A stretch of 34,640 nucleotides of DNA from a virus: the IMG/VR virus record IMGVR_UViG_3300022745_000109, positions 1 through 34,640 of that record; one strand, given 5' to 3'. The position numbers and the translations under genes were made by a program. The notes beneath the pieces are model-generated. The model was not told the DNA's origin. It made no database searches and was given only the letters and a program-made list of their open reading frames with translations. Positions within the stretch are counted from its first letter, which is position 1; the number at the start of each line of letters is the position of its first letter. Below are positions 4,536 through 11,723 of the stretch, piece by piece.

Positions 4536-4996
4536 TCGTGATCGGAATCGATCCAGGTGTGCACACCGGCCTGGCAATCTGCCGCGACGGCGAGCTGATC
4601 CGCTGCGCCAGCCCGGCGCCCGGCATCATCGAAGCGATGGAGATCGTGACTAAGTTGGCGCACTCAGAGCCTGGCCGCGTGCTGGTGGTGTTCGAAGACG
4701 CGCGGCTGATCGGTGGCATCAATGGTGCGCAGCGTGGCAGCAAAGCCGACCGTGCGCGGCTACAGGGCGCCGGCAGCGTCAAGCGCGACTGTGCGATCTG
4801 GGCCGAGCTGCTCGGGCGCCTGGGTGTGCCGTACATCAGCGTCAGCCCACGCGACAAGGGCGCCAAGCTGAGCGCGGCGCAGTTCGAGGCGCTGACTGGC
4901 TGGACCAGCGCATCGAACGAGCACTCGCGCGACGCTGGGGTGCTGGCGTGGCGCTATCGCAACCAGCGCACGGCGTTTGCGAGTCGCGCAAAATAA
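4532..4996 (+). CDS. RuvC-like Holliday junction endonuclease
   Basis: This 154-residue protein has the RNase H fold pattern of RuvC-type resolvases. MIVIGIDPGVHTGLAI provides the first catalytic Asp on strand 1. VLVVFEDAR carries the acidic residue after strand 4. SNEHSRDAGVLA near residue 128 has the closing His/Asp pair. The length is close to the usual 150-175. Such phage enzymes cut branched DNA before packaging or during recombination, which fits the neighbouring packaging genes. This is the last gene before a long gene-free stretch. A non-resolvase RNase H-like role is possible. Confidence 0.75.
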   Translation: MIVIGIDPGVHTGLAICRDGELIRCASPAPGIIEAMEIVTKLAHSEPGRVLVVFEDARLIGGINGAQRGSKADRARLQGAGSVKRDCAIWAELLGRLGVPYISVSPRDKGAKLSAAQFEALTGWTSASNEHSRDAGVLAWRYRNQRTAFASRAK

Positions 4997-4997
4997 G

Positions 4998-5027
4998 TTG
5001 AGTATGTTGCGCGTTATGTGTTAGAGT
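4998..5027 (+). promoter_or_regulatory. Promoter in front of the structured region, with a third operator-like site
   Basis: TTGAGT (4998-5003) and TAGAGT (5022-5027) are 18 bases apart, which is a modest match. The spacer contains TTGCGCGTTATG (5007-5018), resembling the palindrome at 2909-2922. The start would be near 5034, about 30 bases before the first helix of the structured region, so it would transcribe that region and the genes after it. Confidence 0.45.
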
Positions 5028-5064
5028 ATACCCATTGTTGGCGCACATCAGAAATGATCCAATG

Positions 5065-5421
5065 TCCACCGAGGTGCGGTATGGTGGAACTCAAGCTGCA
5101 CGAGTAATTGCGGGCTGTTGTAAGCTCATGAGGCAGTTAATCGCATGACCACCCCGGGAAAGCAGCGGGGGCTATCAGATCAGCAGGCAAGCTTCGCCCG
5201 CCAAGAACCAAGCGAGTGCGGGACGGCTATACCTTGGACGCCGGCTGATCTGATGGCGGACTAAGTGTGCCATCATCACAGCTGGCAGCAGCGGTCAATT
5301 CGTGTGCGGCGGGGCTTCACATCCTCGTTACAAGAACATGCATCCGCACGGCCTTGTTTCCTGTGTGCTCTACCACATGCCAGCTGTGATGATGGCGCTG
5401 CCGGCTTAGCCCCGAGGCAGC
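5065..5421 (+). ncRNA. Candidate structured RNA (chain of abutting helices)
   Basis: No convincing protein is encoded here, but complementary arms follow one another. They are TCCACC/GGTGGA (5065-5070 with 5083-5088), CCCCG/CGGGG (5152-5156 with 5166-5170), a 14-pair helix with one G-U (5171-5184 with 5244-5257), a perfect 19-pair helix (5269-5287 with 5378-5396) enclosing GTGCGG/CCGCAC (5304-5309 with 5344-5349), and GCTGCC/GGCAGC (5397-5402 with 5416-5421) with an inner GGC/GCC. Helices 2 and 3 abut exactly, as do helices 4 and 5, which would favour stacking. It could be a free-standing phage RNA or a long leader controlling the H-NS-like gene. There is no U-run terminator. I do not recognise a known class. 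Confidence 0.5.
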
Positions 5422-5491
5422 AGAGAGTGCGCGGACGAGCAGAAGGAACCCAGCTTCATGGGCCGCCATCAACACATCAACAGGACAACAC
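5422..5491 (+). other. Leader of the H-NS-like gene
   Basis: This 70-base stretch links the last helix of the structured region to the next gene. The only clear element is AGGA at 5482-5485, six bases before the ATG at 5492. No separate promoter is evident, so the gene is probably read from the promoter near 5000. Confidence 0.4.
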
Positions 5492-5869
5492 ATGGACATG
5501 ACGATCGCAGACGAACTGGCCGCAGAAACGCTGGCGGCCGACAGCACGCCCGAAGCGCTGGCGGAGCGCCGCGCCGCGCTGGCTGCGCAGCTGGCCGAGG
5601 TTGATGCCCGGCTGGCGGCTGAGAAGGAGGTCACGCGGTTTGGCGTGATCAAGCGCATCGGCGAGCTGATGCAGCAGCACGGCATCACGGCGGACGAGCT
5701 GACCGGCAAGCCGGCGACGCGCGCAGCCAAGGGCGAGCCGCGCCCGAGCGCACTGACTGGCGTCAAGGTGGCGCCGAAGTACCGCGACCCGGCGACTGGC
5801 AAGACGTGGACTGGCCGTGGTATGCAGCCGGCATGGGTTGACCGCGAAGCGATGCGGATCGCGGCATGA
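5492..5869 (+). CDS. H-NS family nucleoid-associated protein
   Basis: This 125-residue protein has the H-NS layout. An N-terminal helical oligomerisation region runs over residues 1-50 (RRAALAAQLAEVDARLAAEK), followed by a linker and a C-terminal DNA-binding domain. That domain has VAPKYRDPATGKTWTGRGMQP, matching the family motif of a strand, TW and the GRG minor-groove hook. Phage-borne H-NS proteins can silence AT-rich DNA or counter host H-NS. Here it lies just after the structured region and is coupled by ATGA to the dUTPase. The family assignment is strong; the target is unknown. Confidence 0.88.
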   Translation: MDMTIADELAAETLAADSTPEALAERRAALAAQLAEVDARLAAEKEVTRFGVIKRIGELMQQHGITADELTGKPATRAAKGEPRPSALTGVKVAPKYRDPATGKTWTGRGMQPAWVDREAMRIAA

Positions 5870-6294: not shown

Positions 6295-6849
6295 ATGGCT
6301 AGGCCGTCAAAGCTGAGCCCCGAGCAGTGGGCGGAGGTTGAGCGGCGGCTTGCCGCTGGCGAGGGCGTGCGCGACCTGGCGCGAGCGTTCGGCGTGAGCC
6401 CTGCTGCCGTAAGTAAACGCGGTGTTTCGAAACAAACTAAACAAGTGCAGGTTGTTGCGAAACAGCTTGCCGAGGCGCAGACCGCGCTGGCCGCGCTGCC
6501 GGTCGCACAGCAGTACACCGCGCTATCGCTCGCCGAGCAGATGCGCCGGATCGGCCGGAGCATGGCAAGCGCCGCGTCACTGAGTGCGGCCACTGCACAC
6601 CGAATGCACGCGCTCGCAAACCAGGAGGCGCAGAAGATCGACGATGCCGACCCGCTGGCAAACCGCGATGCGTTGATGGGCGTGCAGGCGCTCACGAAGA
6701 TGGGCAACGACGCAGCTGTGTTGCCGATGCAGGTGATCAGCATTGCATCCAAGGGCGCAGCCCGGCCGCCGATGGATGGCGACACGATCGAGGATGCGGC
6801 CGACGTGCCCGACGAAGTGCTGATCCGGATCGCAATGGGCCAGCAGTGA
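6295..6849 (+). CDS. terS: Small terminase subunit
   Basis: This 184-residue protein has an N-terminal helix-turn-helix: LSPEQWAEVERRLAAGEGV, then DLARAFGVSPAAVSKR as turn and recognition helix. A long central helical region (QLAEAQTALAAL to QEAQKIDDADP) would support ring oligomerisation. The C-terminal acidic tail ends before a GTGA overlap with the large terminase. Its role is to recognise the packaging site and regulate the large subunit. Position and architecture both support the call, although small terminases diverge too far for a motif-level proof. Confidence 0.8.
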   Translation: MARPSKLSPEQWAEVERRLAAGEGVRDLARAFGVSPAAVSKRGVSKQTKQVQVVAKQLAEAQTALAALPVAQQYTALSLAEQMRRIGRSMASAASLSAATAHRMHALANQEAQKIDDADPLANRDALMGVQALTKMGNDAAVLPMQVISIASKGAARPPMDGDTIEDAADVPDEVLIRIAMGQQ

Positions 6850-9344
6850 CCCCGCAGCAAGCGGCAAGTGTGGTGATGCTGCGCCGCCGAGCGCGCGACG
6901 ATCTGGTGACCTACGCCAGCCGCGTGCCTGTGCCTGGGTCGCCGATCGAGGACGCCGACGAGCGGGCGCCGATCCCGCTGATTGAGAGCCAGCAGGCCGA
7001 CCATCACCGGCTGATGCTGCGCGAGATGCAGCGATGCATGACGACGCCGCACGGGCGCCTGATGATCTTTGCGCCGCCCGGGTCAGCCAAAAGCACTTAT
7101 GCGACGGTGGTCGCCCCCTCGTGGTATCTCGGCCGCCAGCCCGACCGACGCGTAATCCTTGCCAGCTACGGGGATGAGCTGGCGCGCAGGCACGGGCGGC
7201 GAACCCGCCAGCTTGTCAGCAGCCGAGAGCACGCCGGCATCATGCGGTGCAGCCTGCAGGCCGACCAGCGAGCAGCCGAGGCGTTCGCGCTGACGAACGG
7301 CAGCGAATACCTTGCCTGCGGCATCCTGGCGGGGGTGACTGGCAACCGCGCGCATTGCCTTCTTGGGTCAACGATGGTGGCGACTGATGACGGGGAACGG
7401 CGCATAGATTCTATTGTTGAATCAGGTGATTTATGCTATGTTCTGTCGTATGACATGCATACCGGAAGATTGGTTCGTAAACGCATCAAAGCCGTGGCAA
7501 GGAGTGAAGCGAGCGATATCTATCGAGTGCACACTTCCGATGGTGGCGTGGTCGAGTGTACGAGCGATCATCGCTTCTACACCGAAAGAGGATTTGTCGA
7601 GGCGCGCTTTCTTTCCACCGATGATCGGCTCTTGCGATTGGTGCGGGGCGGTGGTGAAGCGGAATGCATTCGAAATGAAGAAGGCGGACAAAAAGGGTTC
7701 GACGGGAATCTATTGCGGGCATTCGTGCCAGCAAATGGATGTGAACAGGAAACTCGGGAAACTCGGGAAATCGTGCAAGGAGTGCGGGGCGCATCTTCCA
7801 AGATATTTTGCGGGGAGCCGGAGCGGAAAGATATTCTGTACGGACATTTGCAAAGCGGCTGGCGCAGAAAAGACGAAGCAATCCCGGGAATATGTGACAA
7901 AAGAAAGGCCGTGCGAAGTCTGCAATATGGTGTTCCGGCCGAAATCAACGAGGCAACCGGGGAGGTTCTGCTCTCGTGCATGCAAGGATCATGGTCATGC
8001 AATGCAGATGCTTGCGGAGAAGAACCCGGGCTGGAGGGATGGCGCAAACAAGGCAAGACTGGACGAGCATTCGGCGAAGAGCTTCCGCGCCGCGAAGCCA
8101 ATGATTATTCAGAGGGATGGCGGAGAATGTGTGGTGTGCGCTGCAAAATCGCAGCTACATGTGCACCACATCGACATGAATGCATCGAACAATCGATGGG
8201 TGAATTTGGTGACACTTTGCTCGAAGTGTCACATGGAGCTTCATGGGGCAGAGAGGCAGAAACCGCGCGTGTTTCTGTGGCCTTGGTTGAGCGCCTATGC
8301 AGGCCAACCACGGTGTATGACATCCAAGTGGATGAAACCGAGTGCTTTTTTGCAAATGGAGTCCTTGTCCACAACTGCATAATAATTGACGACCCAGTAA
8401 AGGGACGCCAACAGGCTGACTCGCCAGCGACGCGCGAGGCGGTATGGTCCGCATATCAAGACGACCTCAAAACCCGATTAGTTCCTGGTGGCTCGATAGT
8501 CATCATCCTCACGCGCTGGCACGAGGATGACCTGGCGGGCCGCATCCTGCCGACCAACTGGAAGGGTGAGAGCGGCGACATCATGTGCAAGGATGGGCAG
8601 GTCTGGCGCGTGCTGTGCTTGCAAGCCGAGTGCCAGACCGACACCGACCCGATGGGGCGCGCTCGTGGCGAGATGTTGTGGTCGGAATGGTTCGATGCGC
8701 GGCACTGGGACCAGTTCAGGCCGGCTGCGCGCACCTGGGCCAGCCTGTACCAGCAGATCCCCGCACCGCTCGATGGCGGCCTGTTCAAGCCACACATGAT
8801 CCAGATCATCGACGCCGCGCCGGCCGGCGTGCATTGGTGCCGAGGGTGGGACTTCGGCGCAACGACGGATGGCGACCCGACTGCGGGCGCGCTGATCGGT
8901 CGGGCGCCTGACGGCCGGTTCGTGATCGGCGGCATGGAGTGGGGCCGGTGGGGGCCGGATGAGCGCGACGCCTGCCTGATCAACACCGCCAAGCGCGACG
9001 GGCGCAGCGTGCGCATCAGCATCCCTCAAGATCCGGGCCAGGCCGGCAAGACTCAAGGCATCTACCTCACCCGCCAGCTGGCCGGATACCGGGTGACGTG
9101 CACGCCGGAGACGGGCGACAAGGTGACTCGGGCTGAACCCTTCGCGGCTCAGGTCAACGTCGGCAACGTGCTGATGGTGCGCGGCGACTACAGCCAGCGC
9201 TTGATGGACGAGATGCGCGTGTTCCCGAACGGGACGCACGATGACCAGGTGGATGCGTGCGGCCGCGCCTTCGCCGAGGTCATGCAGCCGGTGCGACTGC
9301 AGATCAACCAAGCCGCCATCGACAAGGCTATGAGCGGCAGATAG
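6846..9344 (+). CDS. terL: Large terminase subunit interrupted by an intein
   Basis: This is an 832-residue precursor with a GTG start overlapping the small terminase stop. Removing the 340-residue intein (residues 171-510) leaves 492 residues, a normal large terminase size. The ATPase half has PPGSAKST (77-84) as Walker A, IIIDDPVKG directly after the intein as Walker B, and ILTRWHEDD (about 554-562) as the coupling motif. The nuclease half has GWDFGATTDGD with Asp669 and THDDQVDA with Asp799/Asp800. The protein pumps DNA into the prohead and cuts it. The intein separates Walker A from Walker B, so the unspliced protein should be inactive as a motor. Confidence 0.95.
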   Translation: MTPQQAASVVMLRRRARDDLVTYASRVPVPGSPIEDADERAPIPLIESQQADHHRLMLREMQRCMTTPHGRLMIFAPPGSAKSTYATVVAPSWYLGRQPDRRVILASYGDELARRHGRRTRQLVSSREHAGIMRCSLQADQRAAEAFALTNGSEYLACGILAGVTGNRAHCLLGSTMVATDDGERRIDSIVESGDLCYVLSYDMHTGRLVRKRIKAVARSEASDIYRVHTSDGGVVECTSDHRFYTERGFVEARFLSTDDRLLRLVRGGGEAECIRNEEGGQKGFDGNLLRAFVPANGCEQETRETREIVQGVRGASSKIFCGEPERKDILYGHLQSGWRRKDEAIPGICDKRKAVRSLQYGVPAEINEATGEVLLSCMQGSWSCNADACGEEPGLEGWRKQGKTGRAFGEELPRREANDYSEGWRRMCGVRCKIAATCAPHRHECIEQSMGEFGDTLLEVSHGASWGREAETARVSVALVERLCRPTTVYDIQVDETECFFANGVLVHNCIIIDDPVKGRQQADSPATREAVWSAYQDDLKTRLVPGGSIVIILTRWHEDDLAGRILPTNWKGESGDIMCKDGQVWRVLCLQAECQTDTDPMGRARGEMLWSEWFDARHWDQFRPAARTWASLYQQIPAPLDGGLFKPHMIQIIDAAPAGVHWCRGWDFGATTDGDPTAGALIGRAPDGRFVIGGMEWGRWGPDERDACLINTAKRDGRSVRISIPQDPGQAGKTQGIYLTRQLAGYRVTCTPETGDKVTRAEPFAAQVNVGNVLMVRGDYSQRLMDEMRVFPNGTHDDQVDACGRAFAEVMQPVRLQINQAAIDKAMSGR
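7356..8375 (+). mobile_element. Intein in the large terminase, directly before Walker B
   Basis: The 340-residue intein begins with Cys1 (CLLGSTMVATDDGERRIDSI, block A). Block B contains CTSDHRFYT with the TxxH signature. It ends with VYDIQVD, then FFANGVLVHN (blocks F and G), with Cys as the first downstream residue. All residues needed for class 1 splicing are present. The middle, about residues 95-300 of the intein, has no LAGLIDADG or HNH motif in this frame and is an irregular Gly/Glu/Arg/Cys mixture. Read one frame later, the same DNA encodes an HNH endonuclease. The splice site falls at a conserved active-site position, typical for inteins. Confidence 0.93.
7438..8382 (+). CDS. HNH homing endonuclease nested out of frame in the terminase intein
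   Basis: In the +1 frame relative to terminase there is a 314-residue reading frame with three CxxC...CxxxC fingers (Cys66/69/93/97, 113/116/134/138 and 159/162/178/182), then NPGWRDG. An HNH core follows: Cys231/Cys234, HVHHIDMN with the HH pair at 243-244, Asn256, and CSKCH at 261-265. This order is typical of phage HNH endonucleases. AGGTGA lies eight bases before the ATG at 7438. The next ATG, at 7621, would begin just before the first finger but lacks a good binding site. The last 45 or so residues are the shadow of splicing blocks F/G. The TAA lies seven bases beyond the intein, in the Walker B codons. Confidence 0.85.
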   Translation: MFCRMTCIPEDWFVNASKPWQGVKRAISIECTLPMVAWSSVRAIIASTPKEDLSRRAFFPPMIGSCDWCGAVVKRNAFEMKKADKKGSTGIYCGHSCQQMDVNRKLGKLGKSCKECGAHLPRYFAGSRSGKIFCTDICKAAGAEKTKQSREYVTKERPCEVCNMVFRPKSTRQPGRFCSRACKDHGHAMQMLAEKNPGWRDGANKARLDEHSAKSFRAAKPMIIQRDGGECVVCAAKSQLHVHHIDMNASNNRWVNLVTLCSKCHMELHGAERQKPRVFLWPWLSAYAGQPRCMTSKWMKPSAFLQMESLSTTA

Positions 9345-9380: not shown

Positions 9381-11723
9381 GTGCGACGGAAAACACGGCG
9401 ACCAGCGCCACAGCAGATCGAAGCGCCGAAGCTGGCGGGAATGGGCCTGCGCCGCGCTGCCGCCCGCGCGGCCGAGTCCGATCGGCCCGAGAAATCCTAC
9501 GAATGGCCGGTTCAGCCGCCGCAGCTGCTGAAGGGTGTTGTGCCTGCCGGCGTGACCGCGCCAGTGATGGCACAAGACTCGCCCGCCTACACGATGGCCG
9601 CCCACGCATTCCCGGGCGGCGGCTTCCCGGGCTTCGCCTATCTCTCTCAGCTCGCCACCCGGCCCGAGTTCCGGCAGATGGCCGCCGCGCTGAGTACCGA
9701 GCTGACACGAGAATGGATCGAGTTCACGTCTTCGCAGGACGACGGCGCCGGCAGCGCTGACCGCATCACGGCGATCGAGGCCGAGTTCAAACGCCTGAAC
9801 GTGCGCGGCGTGATCCAGCGCGCGGCCGAGCACGACGCCTTTTTCGGCCGCGCTCAGGTGTTCCTTGACATCCGTGGCGCCGACCGAGCAACCCCGCTGA
9901 TTCTCGACCCGCGCACGATCCAGCCTGGCAGCCTGCAGGGCGTGGCGACCGTGGAAGCGGTGTGGACCACGCCGGCCACGTACAACGCACTCGACCCGGT
10001 GGCGCCTGATTTCTACCGGCCGCCGAAGTGGTTCATGCTGGGCCAGGAAGTCCACGCCAGCCGCCTGATGACGGTGGTCACCCGGCCACTGCCAGACATC
10101 CTCAAGCCCGCGTTCAACTTCGCTGGCATGTCGCTGTCACAGCTGGCCGAGCCATATGTTGATAACTGGCTGCGCACGCGCCAGAGCGTGTCGGACCTGC
10201 TCAACAATTTCAGCATCACGGCACTCGCAACGAGCATGGACCAGGTGCTGCAGGGCGATGACGACGGCGCATCGCTGTTTGCGCGCGCCAAGCTGTTCAC
10301 GGCGACGCGCAGCAACAAGGGGCTGATGCTGCTCGACAAGGAGCGCGAAGAGATCGTTCAGATCAACACGCCGTTGTCAGGGCTGCACGAGCTGCAGGCG
10401 CAGAGTCAGGAGCACATGTGCCTTTCAAAGGGGACGCTGATTGAGACGCGGAGAGGTCAAATACCAATCGAATTCGTTAAAGAAAATGATGAAGTCATGA
10501 CCAGAGACGGTTATGCTCCTGTAGAATGGGCGGGTGTCACCGGCACAACGTCTAGCTTTGTCGAGATTGATTCAGGTGGGTCAATCTTGCGAGCAACAAA
10601 GGAGCATCCAATATGGCTGGAAACGACTCAAGAATTTGTACCTGCGAAGAATGTTCATCATTCAAGCTTCCTCAGAAAAAGCCCCGCATGGGAATCTATG
10701 GGCAATCCATTGCATGGCGAGGGCGCTTATGGTGCTACACAAAACAAGGATATTACCGAAATACAAAAGCAGGAGGGCTGTTGCACAGGGTTATTTATGA
10801 AACCCATATCGGCCCCATTCCTGCGGGGCTTGATGTTCATCACAAAGACGAAAACCCGCGCAACAACACAATTGAAAACTTGGTTTTGCTCACAAGAGCA
10901 GAGCACACAGCAGAGCATGACCCAAAAGGTTGGTACATCCAACTTGATGGCACTTTGTATGAAAAAGTTTGTGAACAATGTGGGGCTAATTTTCAAACCG
11001 CATGGCCCAACAGAGGCAAATTTTGCTCAGACAAATGCAAACAAAAAGCATTCAAAATTAGAAAGCGGAATCAAGCAAATCCGTGAACTTCGCTTGTTTC
11101 AAGATGAGCCTGTTTACAACATAAAGGTTAAAGACGGATTTTTACCCGAGTTCTTTGCAAATGGAATCCTTGTCCATAATTGCAGCGTCAGCCGGCTGCC
11201 GTCGGTCATCTTGACCGGCATTTCGCCGAGTGGGCTCAATGCATCCAGCGATGGCGAAATCCGCATCTTCTACGACTGGATTGCAGCGCAGCAGGAGGCG
11301 CACTGGCGCGCGCCGATCGAGGTGATTTTGAAGGCCGTGCAGCTCTCGCTATTTGGTGAGACCGATCCGGACATCGGGTTCGAGTTCGTGCCGCTGTACC
11401 AGATGACGCCGGCCGAAGAAGCGGACATCCGCGCAAAGGATTGCACCACCGCGTGCGCCTACGTTGACCACAGTATTCTCGACCCGTCCGAGGTCCGGCA
11501 GAAGCTGGCGCGCGATCCGGCCAGCGGGTTCCACGGGATTGATGCGGATGCGGAGATCGTGCCGCCCGTTGACCCTGCAAATGGGATGGACCCAGCGCAA
11601 GCTGACGACGAGAGCGTCAGTGAAGCGCAGCGCCGAGCAATGGAGGCCGCAGCACATGGCCGCAGCACAATCGGCATTCCGAAATCAGTTGGCAAGGAAT
11701 TCGCGCGTGCCGACGAAGCCTAA
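9381..11723 (+). CDS. Portal protein (DUF1073 type) interrupted by an intein
   Basis: This 780-residue precursor starts at GTG with AGGAG eight bases upstream. Residues 347-600 are an intein, leaving a 526-residue protein, a normal portal length. The extein has features I associate with DUF1073-type portals: early ALSTELTREWIEF, central FGRAQVFLDI, ASRLMTVV and AEPYVDNWLRTRQSVSDLL. After the intein come SVSRLPSVILTGISPSGLNA and EIRIFYDWIAAQQE. The portal is the dodecameric ring through which DNA enters. The intein sits just before the LPSVILTG segment, a conserved part of this family. The gene overlaps the gpF-like gene. Confidence 0.88.
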   Translation: MRRKTRRPAPQQIEAPKLAGMGLRRAAARAAESDRPEKSYEWPVQPPQLLKGVVPAGVTAPVMAQDSPAYTMAAHAFPGGGFPGFAYLSQLATRPEFRQMAAALSTELTREWIEFTSSQDDGAGSADRITAIEAEFKRLNVRGVIQRAAEHDAFFGRAQVFLDIRGADRATPLILDPRTIQPGSLQGVATVEAVWTTPATYNALDPVAPDFYRPPKWFMLGQEVHASRLMTVVTRPLPDILKPAFNFAGMSLSQLAEPYVDNWLRTRQSVSDLLNNFSITALATSMDQVLQGDDDGASLFARAKLFTATRSNKGLMLLDKEREEIVQINTPLSGLHELQAQSQEHMCLSKGTLIETRRGQIPIEFVKENDEVMTRDGYAPVEWAGVTGTTSSFVEIDSGGSILRATKEHPIWLETTQEFVPAKNVHHSSFLRKSPAWESMGNPLHGEGAYGATQNKDITEIQKQEGCCTGLFMKPISAPFLRGLMFITKTKTRATTQLKTWFCSQEQSTQQSMTQKVGTSNLMALCMKKFVNNVGLIFKPHGPTEANFAQTNANKKHSKLESGIKQIRELRLFQDEPVYNIKVKDGFLPEFFANGILVHNCSVSRLPSVILTGISPSGLNASSDGEIRIFYDWIAAQQEAHWRAPIEVILKAVQLSLFGETDPDIGFEFVPLYQMTPAEEADIRAKDCTTACAYVDHSILDPSEVRQKLARDPASGFHGIDADAEIVPPVDPANGMDPAQADDESVSEAQRRAMEAAAHGRSTIGIPKSVGKEFARADEA
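10419..11180 (+). mobile_element. Intein in the portal protein
   Basis: The 254-residue intein begins with Cys1 (CLSKGTLIETRRGQIPIEFV). Block B is LRATKEHPIWL with TxxH. It ends PVYNIKVKDG, then FFANGILVHN, followed by Cys. The catalytic set for class 1 splicing is complete. The central stretch, about residues 90-225, has no endonuclease motif in this frame. The DNA is clearly more AT-rich than the host gene: 23 of 60 bases are G or C in 10741-10800, against 40 of 60 in 9961-10020. This supports foreign origin. An HNH gene lies in another frame exactly between blocks B and F. Confidence 0.93.
10613..11086 (+). CDS. HNH homing endonuclease nested out of frame in the portal intein
   Basis: In the +2 frame relative to the portal there is a 157-residue protein. 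It contains LLHRVIYETHIGPIPAG, then LDVHHKDENPRNN (HH at 76-77), IENLVLL with Asn89, and EHTAEH with His98/His102. This is a textbook phage HNH_3-type core. A C-terminal finger follows (CEQC at 120-123, CSDKC at 138-142) and a basic tail. AAAGGAG ends nine bases before the ATG, so independent translation is likely. That ribosome binding site is also the Lys-Glu codons of splicing block B. The gene stops about 20 bases before block F, so it fits between the splicing blocks. Confidence 0.9.
   Translation: MAGNDSRICTCEECSSFKLPQKKPRMGIYGQSIAWRGRLWCYTKQGYYRNTKAGGLLHRVIYETHIGPIPAGLDVHHKDENPRNNTIENLVLLTRAEHTAEHDPKGWYIQLDGTLYEKVCEQCGANFQTAWPNRGKFCSDKCKQKAFKIRKRNQANP

Follow-up and report, generated by a model that had tools for sequence, protein, structure and literature searches.

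The described RNAs closest to the element reported here are tRNA and tmRNA, some stable or large structured RNAs of phages, and a phage operon leader. GOLLD and ROOL are large structured phage RNAs, GOLLD having a tRNA near or inside it. The stable RNAs C and D of phage T4 (species 1 and 2) come from the phage tRNA cluster, and we know of no function for them. The put element of phage HK022 acts from the leader of phage operons and consists of two adjacent stem-loops that abut without a spacer (PMC9378689).

Here we describe a locus in a 34,640-nucleotide stretch of viral DNA (the window) that is predicted to encode a member of a widespread and apparently undescribed modular family of structured RNAs of phages, composed of repeated hairpin and tRNA-like modules. 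Its members usually stand at the head of blocks of phage genes, often with tRNA genes as neighbours. The original prediction, that this locus gives a structured RNA which might be abundant or serve as a regulatory leader, is now supported by compensatory change and by the leader position in most relatives; the modular family, the tRNA-like domains and the link with tRNA genes formed no part of it.

Comparison with described RNAs

The window RNA matched none of the 4227 families of Rfam 15 at gathering score, and a permissive search of the same database returned only a chance miRNA hairpin (E 0.0007, 30.5 of 100 bits). The GOLLD and ROOL models had no match in the window and 18 other loci (L026 in part), and no Rfam match was obtained of the kind of bacterial Y RNA (YrlA), in which a Ro60-binding stem is combined with a tRNA-like domain. 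When compared by blastn with phages and plasmids, the window RNA gave a single match, 29 bases within a cas1 gene, which is attributed to chance. No description of the element was found in the literature covered, which included few subscription papers, and a search there for the D-arm string gave no paper. Group I and II introns, the IscB omegaRNA and attC were dropped, with neither a model match nor a partner gene.

The family resembles tRNA (RF00005) and tmRNA in the order of acceptor, D-arm and T-arm, with the T-arm running without a gap into the acceptor 3' strand. It differs from tRNA in that its acceptor is often 12-20 bp long and joined to a hairpin (A), the linker is the 3-nt AAT, the loops are AGGCTGAT and AGATCAGCA, an anticodon arm is usually absent and there is no CCA end; the window copy gave no match to tRNA. 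T4 rnaC shares a canonical T-arm hairpin, which is a generic likeness, and rnaC and rnaD were rejected as homologues, having no module A and neither the D-loop nor the T-loop of the family. HK022 put is about 70 nt long, with two stem-loops next to an early promoter, and brings about readthrough of terminators by way of the beta' zinc-binding domain. The window RNA shows abutting helices and a leader position but not this size, the family RNA being much larger, and put lacks tRNA-like modules; no sequence similarity to putL was seen, and put was likewise rejected as a homologue.

Organization of the window RNA

The window belongs to a tailed phage, with genes for sheath, portal, terminase and major head proteins. 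The stretch predicted to be gene-free is bounded by a RuvC-type gene, which ends at position 4996, and a same-strand H-NS-like gene. The nature of the latter, also anticipated, is borne out by its Pfam match (Table 1). An open reading frame overlapping the stretch (5265-5501) has no support as a gene. As regards an upstream promoter, the promoter-like sequence is present and conserved in the relative L005, whose similarity to the window begins exactly at the TTGAG despite an unrelated upstream gene, but it lies below the threshold of the sigma-70 consensus scan, which returned 0 sites.

The fold of 5030-5491 on the plus strand (-186.4 kcal/mol, z -3.02, 1 of 100 shuffles equally good) is beyond that of shuffled sequences, and that of the minus strand is not (z -1.16, 15 of 100 shuffles equally good). 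The perfect 19-pair helix of the original prediction corresponds to an inverted repeat of 19 nt with 100% complementarity, and the 14-pair helix to the 14 contiguous pairs, counted from the base, of an 18-nt repeat of 89% complementarity (5171-5188/5240-5257); several weaker pairs accompany them. One abutment of helices was also confirmed, hairpin A (5152-5170) running straight into helix B1 with zero bases between.

Table 1. Features of the window RNA and its immediate surroundings
Feature	Position	Strand	Basis
Promoter-like TTGAGT-18-TAGAGT	4998-5027	+	Read off the sequence; conserved in L005 from exactly there
5' domain of the RNA	5030-5145	+	Conserved over its 3' half in L005 and L006; part of the fold
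Module A, TGAC-CA and hairpin CCCCG-GGAAAGCAG-CGGGG	5146-5170	+	Same motif, with intact pattern-free pairs, in 28/33 loci
Module B1, long helix (arms 5171-5184/5244-5257)	5171-5257	+	Inverted repeat; compensated in relatives
B1 strand x1, GCTATCA	5171-5177	+
B1 strand y1, TGATGGC	5251-5257	+
Module B2, 19-bp helix (5269-5287/5378-5396) and cargo	5258-5397	+	Clean 139-nt unit, absent from L005 and L006
y2 TGATGGC, B2 3' strand	5390-5396	+	Complementary to z as well
3' domain, two hairpins (GCTGCC..GGCAGC and CCCAGCTTCATGGG) followed by z	5397-5471	+	Conserved in L005 and L006
z GCCATCA	5465-5471	+	y/z complementarity
H-NS-like, first gene 3' of the RNA	5492-5869	+	Pfam Histone_HNS, E 2.2e-10

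Judging from alignment with close relatives, the RNA region is modular. L005 and L006 have the RNA in common with the window, and module B2, bounded by the direct repeat TGATGGCG, is missing from both; L006 carries one extra module upstream. L026, more distantly related but still within this phage group, has a hairpin A with its helix B ahead of an H-NS-like gene of its own, whose product is 34% identical to that of the window; after A and B come a D-arm-like hairpin and then a tRNA-Tyr gene.

Apart from the RNA, the window contains inteins in the large terminase and portal protein genes (6846-9344 and 9381-11723), identified as Intein_splicing (residues 181-510) and Hint_2 (residues 346-390), respectively. 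L026 aligns on either side of both sites, minus about 1.0 kb and 0.76 kb there.

Covariation in motif A and helix B

Motif A, also met in distant phages, consists of TGAC-x-A and, after it, a stem of 5 bp capped by the loop GGAAAGYAG. Used as the sole search pattern, it was found in 37 viral and 10 genome stretches, giving 33 non-redundant loci. Both stem pairs left free by the pattern were Watson-Crick in 28 of these, against a permutation mean of 11.3, and 28 was attained in 0 of 5000 permutations. The five failing loci, four of them genome contigs (L109, L110, L116, L117) and the fifth L068, resemble chance matches with broken stems, and were retained in the 33-locus counts. Variants of module A with GGAAAGAC loops occur in L006, L026, L084 and phage PhiPLPE.

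In 17 of the 33 loci, but only 17 of 3300 shuffles, A is followed at once by a perfect helix with 12 or more pairs, a count made without the duplicates L001-L003, L005 and L074 and in which L072 and the window are one lineage (16/32 without L072). The first seven positions of this helix B are conserved (RCYATCA/TGATGGY), while positions 8-14 show many pair types that are 99.1% paired within their own locus vs 47.6% when the arms are swapped (16 loci, L072 removed). Compensatory substitutions, whose absence had been named as a reason to abandon the RNA, are thus plentiful in A and helix B, and also in the acceptor stems considered below. The third strand gives a fainter signal, y/z covariation being only suggestive: the pair is C-G or T-A in 10 of 13 loci and wobble or ambiguous in three (Fisher p 0.07). 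A more generic scan, accepting every GGAAAG hairpin that a helix abuts, returned 24/82 vs 4/30 in reversed sequence and is therefore weak alone; three of the 24 matches (L042:5760, L061, L080) look like chance.

tRNA-like modules

tRNA-like elements occur in many relatives. They lie within helix B or in the interval from y, the 3' strand of that helix, to strand z downstream. The Rfam tRNA model (RF00005, cut-off 29 bits) matches inside the RNA in L091 (44.4 bits), L111 (38.7 bits) and L107 (34.9 bits), with L094 just under the cut-off at 26.5 bits; the tRNA-Tyr of L026 also passes it and the window does not. The recurrent order of the module is an acceptor strand, AAT, a 4-bp stem with the loop AGGCTGAT, a spacer, a 5-bp stem with the loop AGATCAGCA and the second acceptor strand. 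A, B and a tRNA-like module occur within one RNA in L084 and, since the recurrent fixed-loop module lies there inside the A-B module, the A-B RNAs and the tRNA-like module are taken as one family.

Scanning viral contigs with the T-arm 17-mer alone gave at least 120 stretches, and the set analysed comprised 80 loci among the matches listed, with 83 places, 68 of them non-redundant. A D-arm was present within 260 nt upstream of the T-arm in 48 of the 68 places and in none of the 68 in the downstream control. Among the 48 places with a D-arm, 41 have an acceptor in which seven or all of the 8 pairs are formed (eight pairs in 29, seven in 12, six in four, and five, four and two in one each), with 25 distinct acceptor sequences, and swapped acceptors average 4.77 of 8 pairs. 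A tRNA topology of D-arm, T-arm and acceptor is therefore present in the family at these frequencies, the window copy being without the loops. A-like hairpins with seven different stems were found within 600 nt upstream in 9/68 places, eight of the nine preceded by TGAC, and in none on the other strand.

No D-arm, T-arm or tRNA-model match was obtained in the window RNA, which keeps the A/B/z skeleton and is missing the conserved D and T loops. Because of this, its membership of the family is assigned through A, the x, y and z strands, L026 and L084. Its connection to the modules of coliphages and Pseudomonas phages would run via L026 and L084, and not through direct sequence similarity.

Genomic context

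The leader position was seen in most relatives examined. In PAJU2 and further D3-like phages of Pseudomonas the modules are part of the PL leader. Elsewhere they stand 3' of an Xre regulator in Acidovorax phage AP1, ahead of the leftward recE/bet block in Iodobacter phage PhiPLPE, and between the Q antiterminator gene and the holin in the E. coli HS prophage. In Klebsiella phage KP591P1 the module is followed by three tRNA genes and then by a gene on the opposite strand. Of 5426 complete E. coli genomes, 1012 had some match to a 37-base query around the D-arm, but in only 2 did the match cover 80% of the query; two such loci were inspected.

tRNA and tmRNA genes are concentrated around the RNA. 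Among 28 loci, six lay near it vs two elsewhere (0.138 vs 0.008 per kb; binomial p 2e-4) and, among the 68 T-arm places, 17 lay within 1 kb vs eight elsewhere (0.134 vs 0.015 per kb; p 2e-7), all 17 on the same strand as the RNA.

Other features were observed in these phages. Permuted tmRNA genes occur in the phage contigs L084 (1217-1453, 79.5 bits), just 3' of a second A-B module, and L105 (605-858, 111 bits), and in phage QDWS595 about 2 kb from the module. The D3-like Pseudomonas PL leaders L108, L119, L120 and L123 share another recurrent hairpin, of the type GATTTCTCAGATGCGC..GCGCATCGAGGAAATC. In the 5 kb behind the RNA, two Comamonas-type prophages (L077, L081) have 8-9 strong intrinsic terminators on its strand, several of them immediately ahead of start codons.

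Possible function

As regards function, a tRNA-mimic stable RNA is our first choice and an antitermination leader the second. What the sequence comparison shows is the compensatory pairing, the strand, the modularity, the tRNA topology and the placement of the RNA with tRNA genes. We tentatively propose that the RNA may be a modular leader of phage transcripts acting as a tRNA-mimic stable RNA. In such a model the small hairpin A would stack directly on the long helix B. The cargo of B varies and is, in many relatives, a tRNA-like domain formed by an acceptor-like helix, a short linker, a D-arm, a spacer and a T-arm leading without a gap into the acceptor 3' strand. The third strand, z, could pair with the 3' strand of B, and these 7 bp would be the acceptor of another tRNA-like domain. 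A tRNA elbow would arise from the D and T loops, which are invariant, leaving the acceptor sequence free to vary. This elbow would mimic tRNA to a host factor that recognises it, whether RNase P or a different enzyme of tRNA, and contact with that factor would free or protect the RNA from the operon transcript. The RNA could then accumulate as a stable phage RNA, occupying tRNA-binding machinery or nucleases, perhaps in trans. The window copy would have retained the A/B/z skeleton, the loop sequences of its tRNA-like part having been replaced. Counting against mimicry are the missing CCA end and, in most modules, the missing anticodon arm, the window copy with neither D-arm, T-arm nor tRNA-model match, the only suggestive y/z covariation, and the connection of the window RNA to the coliphage and Pseudomonas modules by way of L026 and L084. 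Mimicry is favoured because the elbow loops are invariant while the acceptor sequence is free, because tRNA genes keep company with the RNA, and because in DMCA, Pan3 and KP591P1 there is no same-strand protein gene directly behind it.

The last of these observations bears against the second choice, a cis-acting antitermination leader like HK022 put, in which the nascent RNA would bind the elongating polymerase and allow it to pass operon terminators; this we regard as possible but rather less probable. It would fit the position of the RNA at operon starts, including the PL leader of PAJU2 and D3-like phages, and the construction of put, which also consists of two abutting stem-loops (PMC9378689). 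Moreover, the YA3 paper reports that no N homologue was found in a phage close to Ab31 (PMC7326022), and Ab31 carries the element. Strong intrinsic terminators stand directly between the RNA and the first gene in L042, L069, L070, PhiPLPE and others, and downstream terminators number 68 on the same strand vs 33 antisense (125.7 kb, 31 chosen loci), although four related Comamonas-type loci (L073, L077, L081, L099) supply 29 of the 68 and 12 of the 33, leaving 39 vs 21 without them. The window, however, has no terminator between the RNA and the H-NS-like gene and only one in 5 kb, the family RNA is far larger than put and without similarity to putL, and the E. coli HS copy sits behind the Q gene, so that late readthrough there would be served by another factor.

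An unlikely alternative is a regulatory switch in which strand y would choose between two partners, x (giving helix B) and z (giving a tRNA-like acceptor), and thereby control the gene just after z. The three strands do recur, A-C is absent from y/z in all 13 loci but closes x/y in L101 and L114, strands of the TGATGGTG/CACCATC type serve as acceptor in L091 and L169, and z in the window ends 20 bases ahead of the H-NS start codon. The x-y helix, with its 19 bp in B2, is nevertheless much the stronger of the two and prevails in all folds of the window, z is absent from several loci, and the downstream genes differ between loci, so no common output of a switch is visible. It is most improbable that the pairing has no role in RNA and reflects a DNA-level repeat, namely an inserted inverted-repeat element. 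Whole modules are indeed gained or lost among close relatives, with short direct repeats (TGATGGCG or TGACAC) at their flanks, but folding exceeds chance on one strand only, loop conservation is limited to that strand, G-U pairs are tolerated, the tRNA model finds matches, and the tRNA genes within 1 kb all share the strand of the RNA.

Significance

It is quite possible, if a little short of probable, that these elements constitute an unrecognised class of phage RNA, with exchangeable tRNA-mimic modules at the head of transcription units across proteobacterial phages, from D3-like Pseudomonas phages to prophages of many E. coli genomes, their elbow loops being invariant and their acceptors evolving freely, which would serve phages generally as a tool to engage the host tRNA or transcription machinery. 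In well-studied D3-like phages such as PAJU2, and in E. coli prophages, a structured RNA element has apparently gone unannotated so far. The conserved loops and module boundaries suffice for building a covariance model and for designing deletions. The RNA is a candidate for the job of N in those lambdoid phages of Pseudomonas that lack it, and may also bear on the question of why phages make stable tRNA-like RNAs other than tRNAs.
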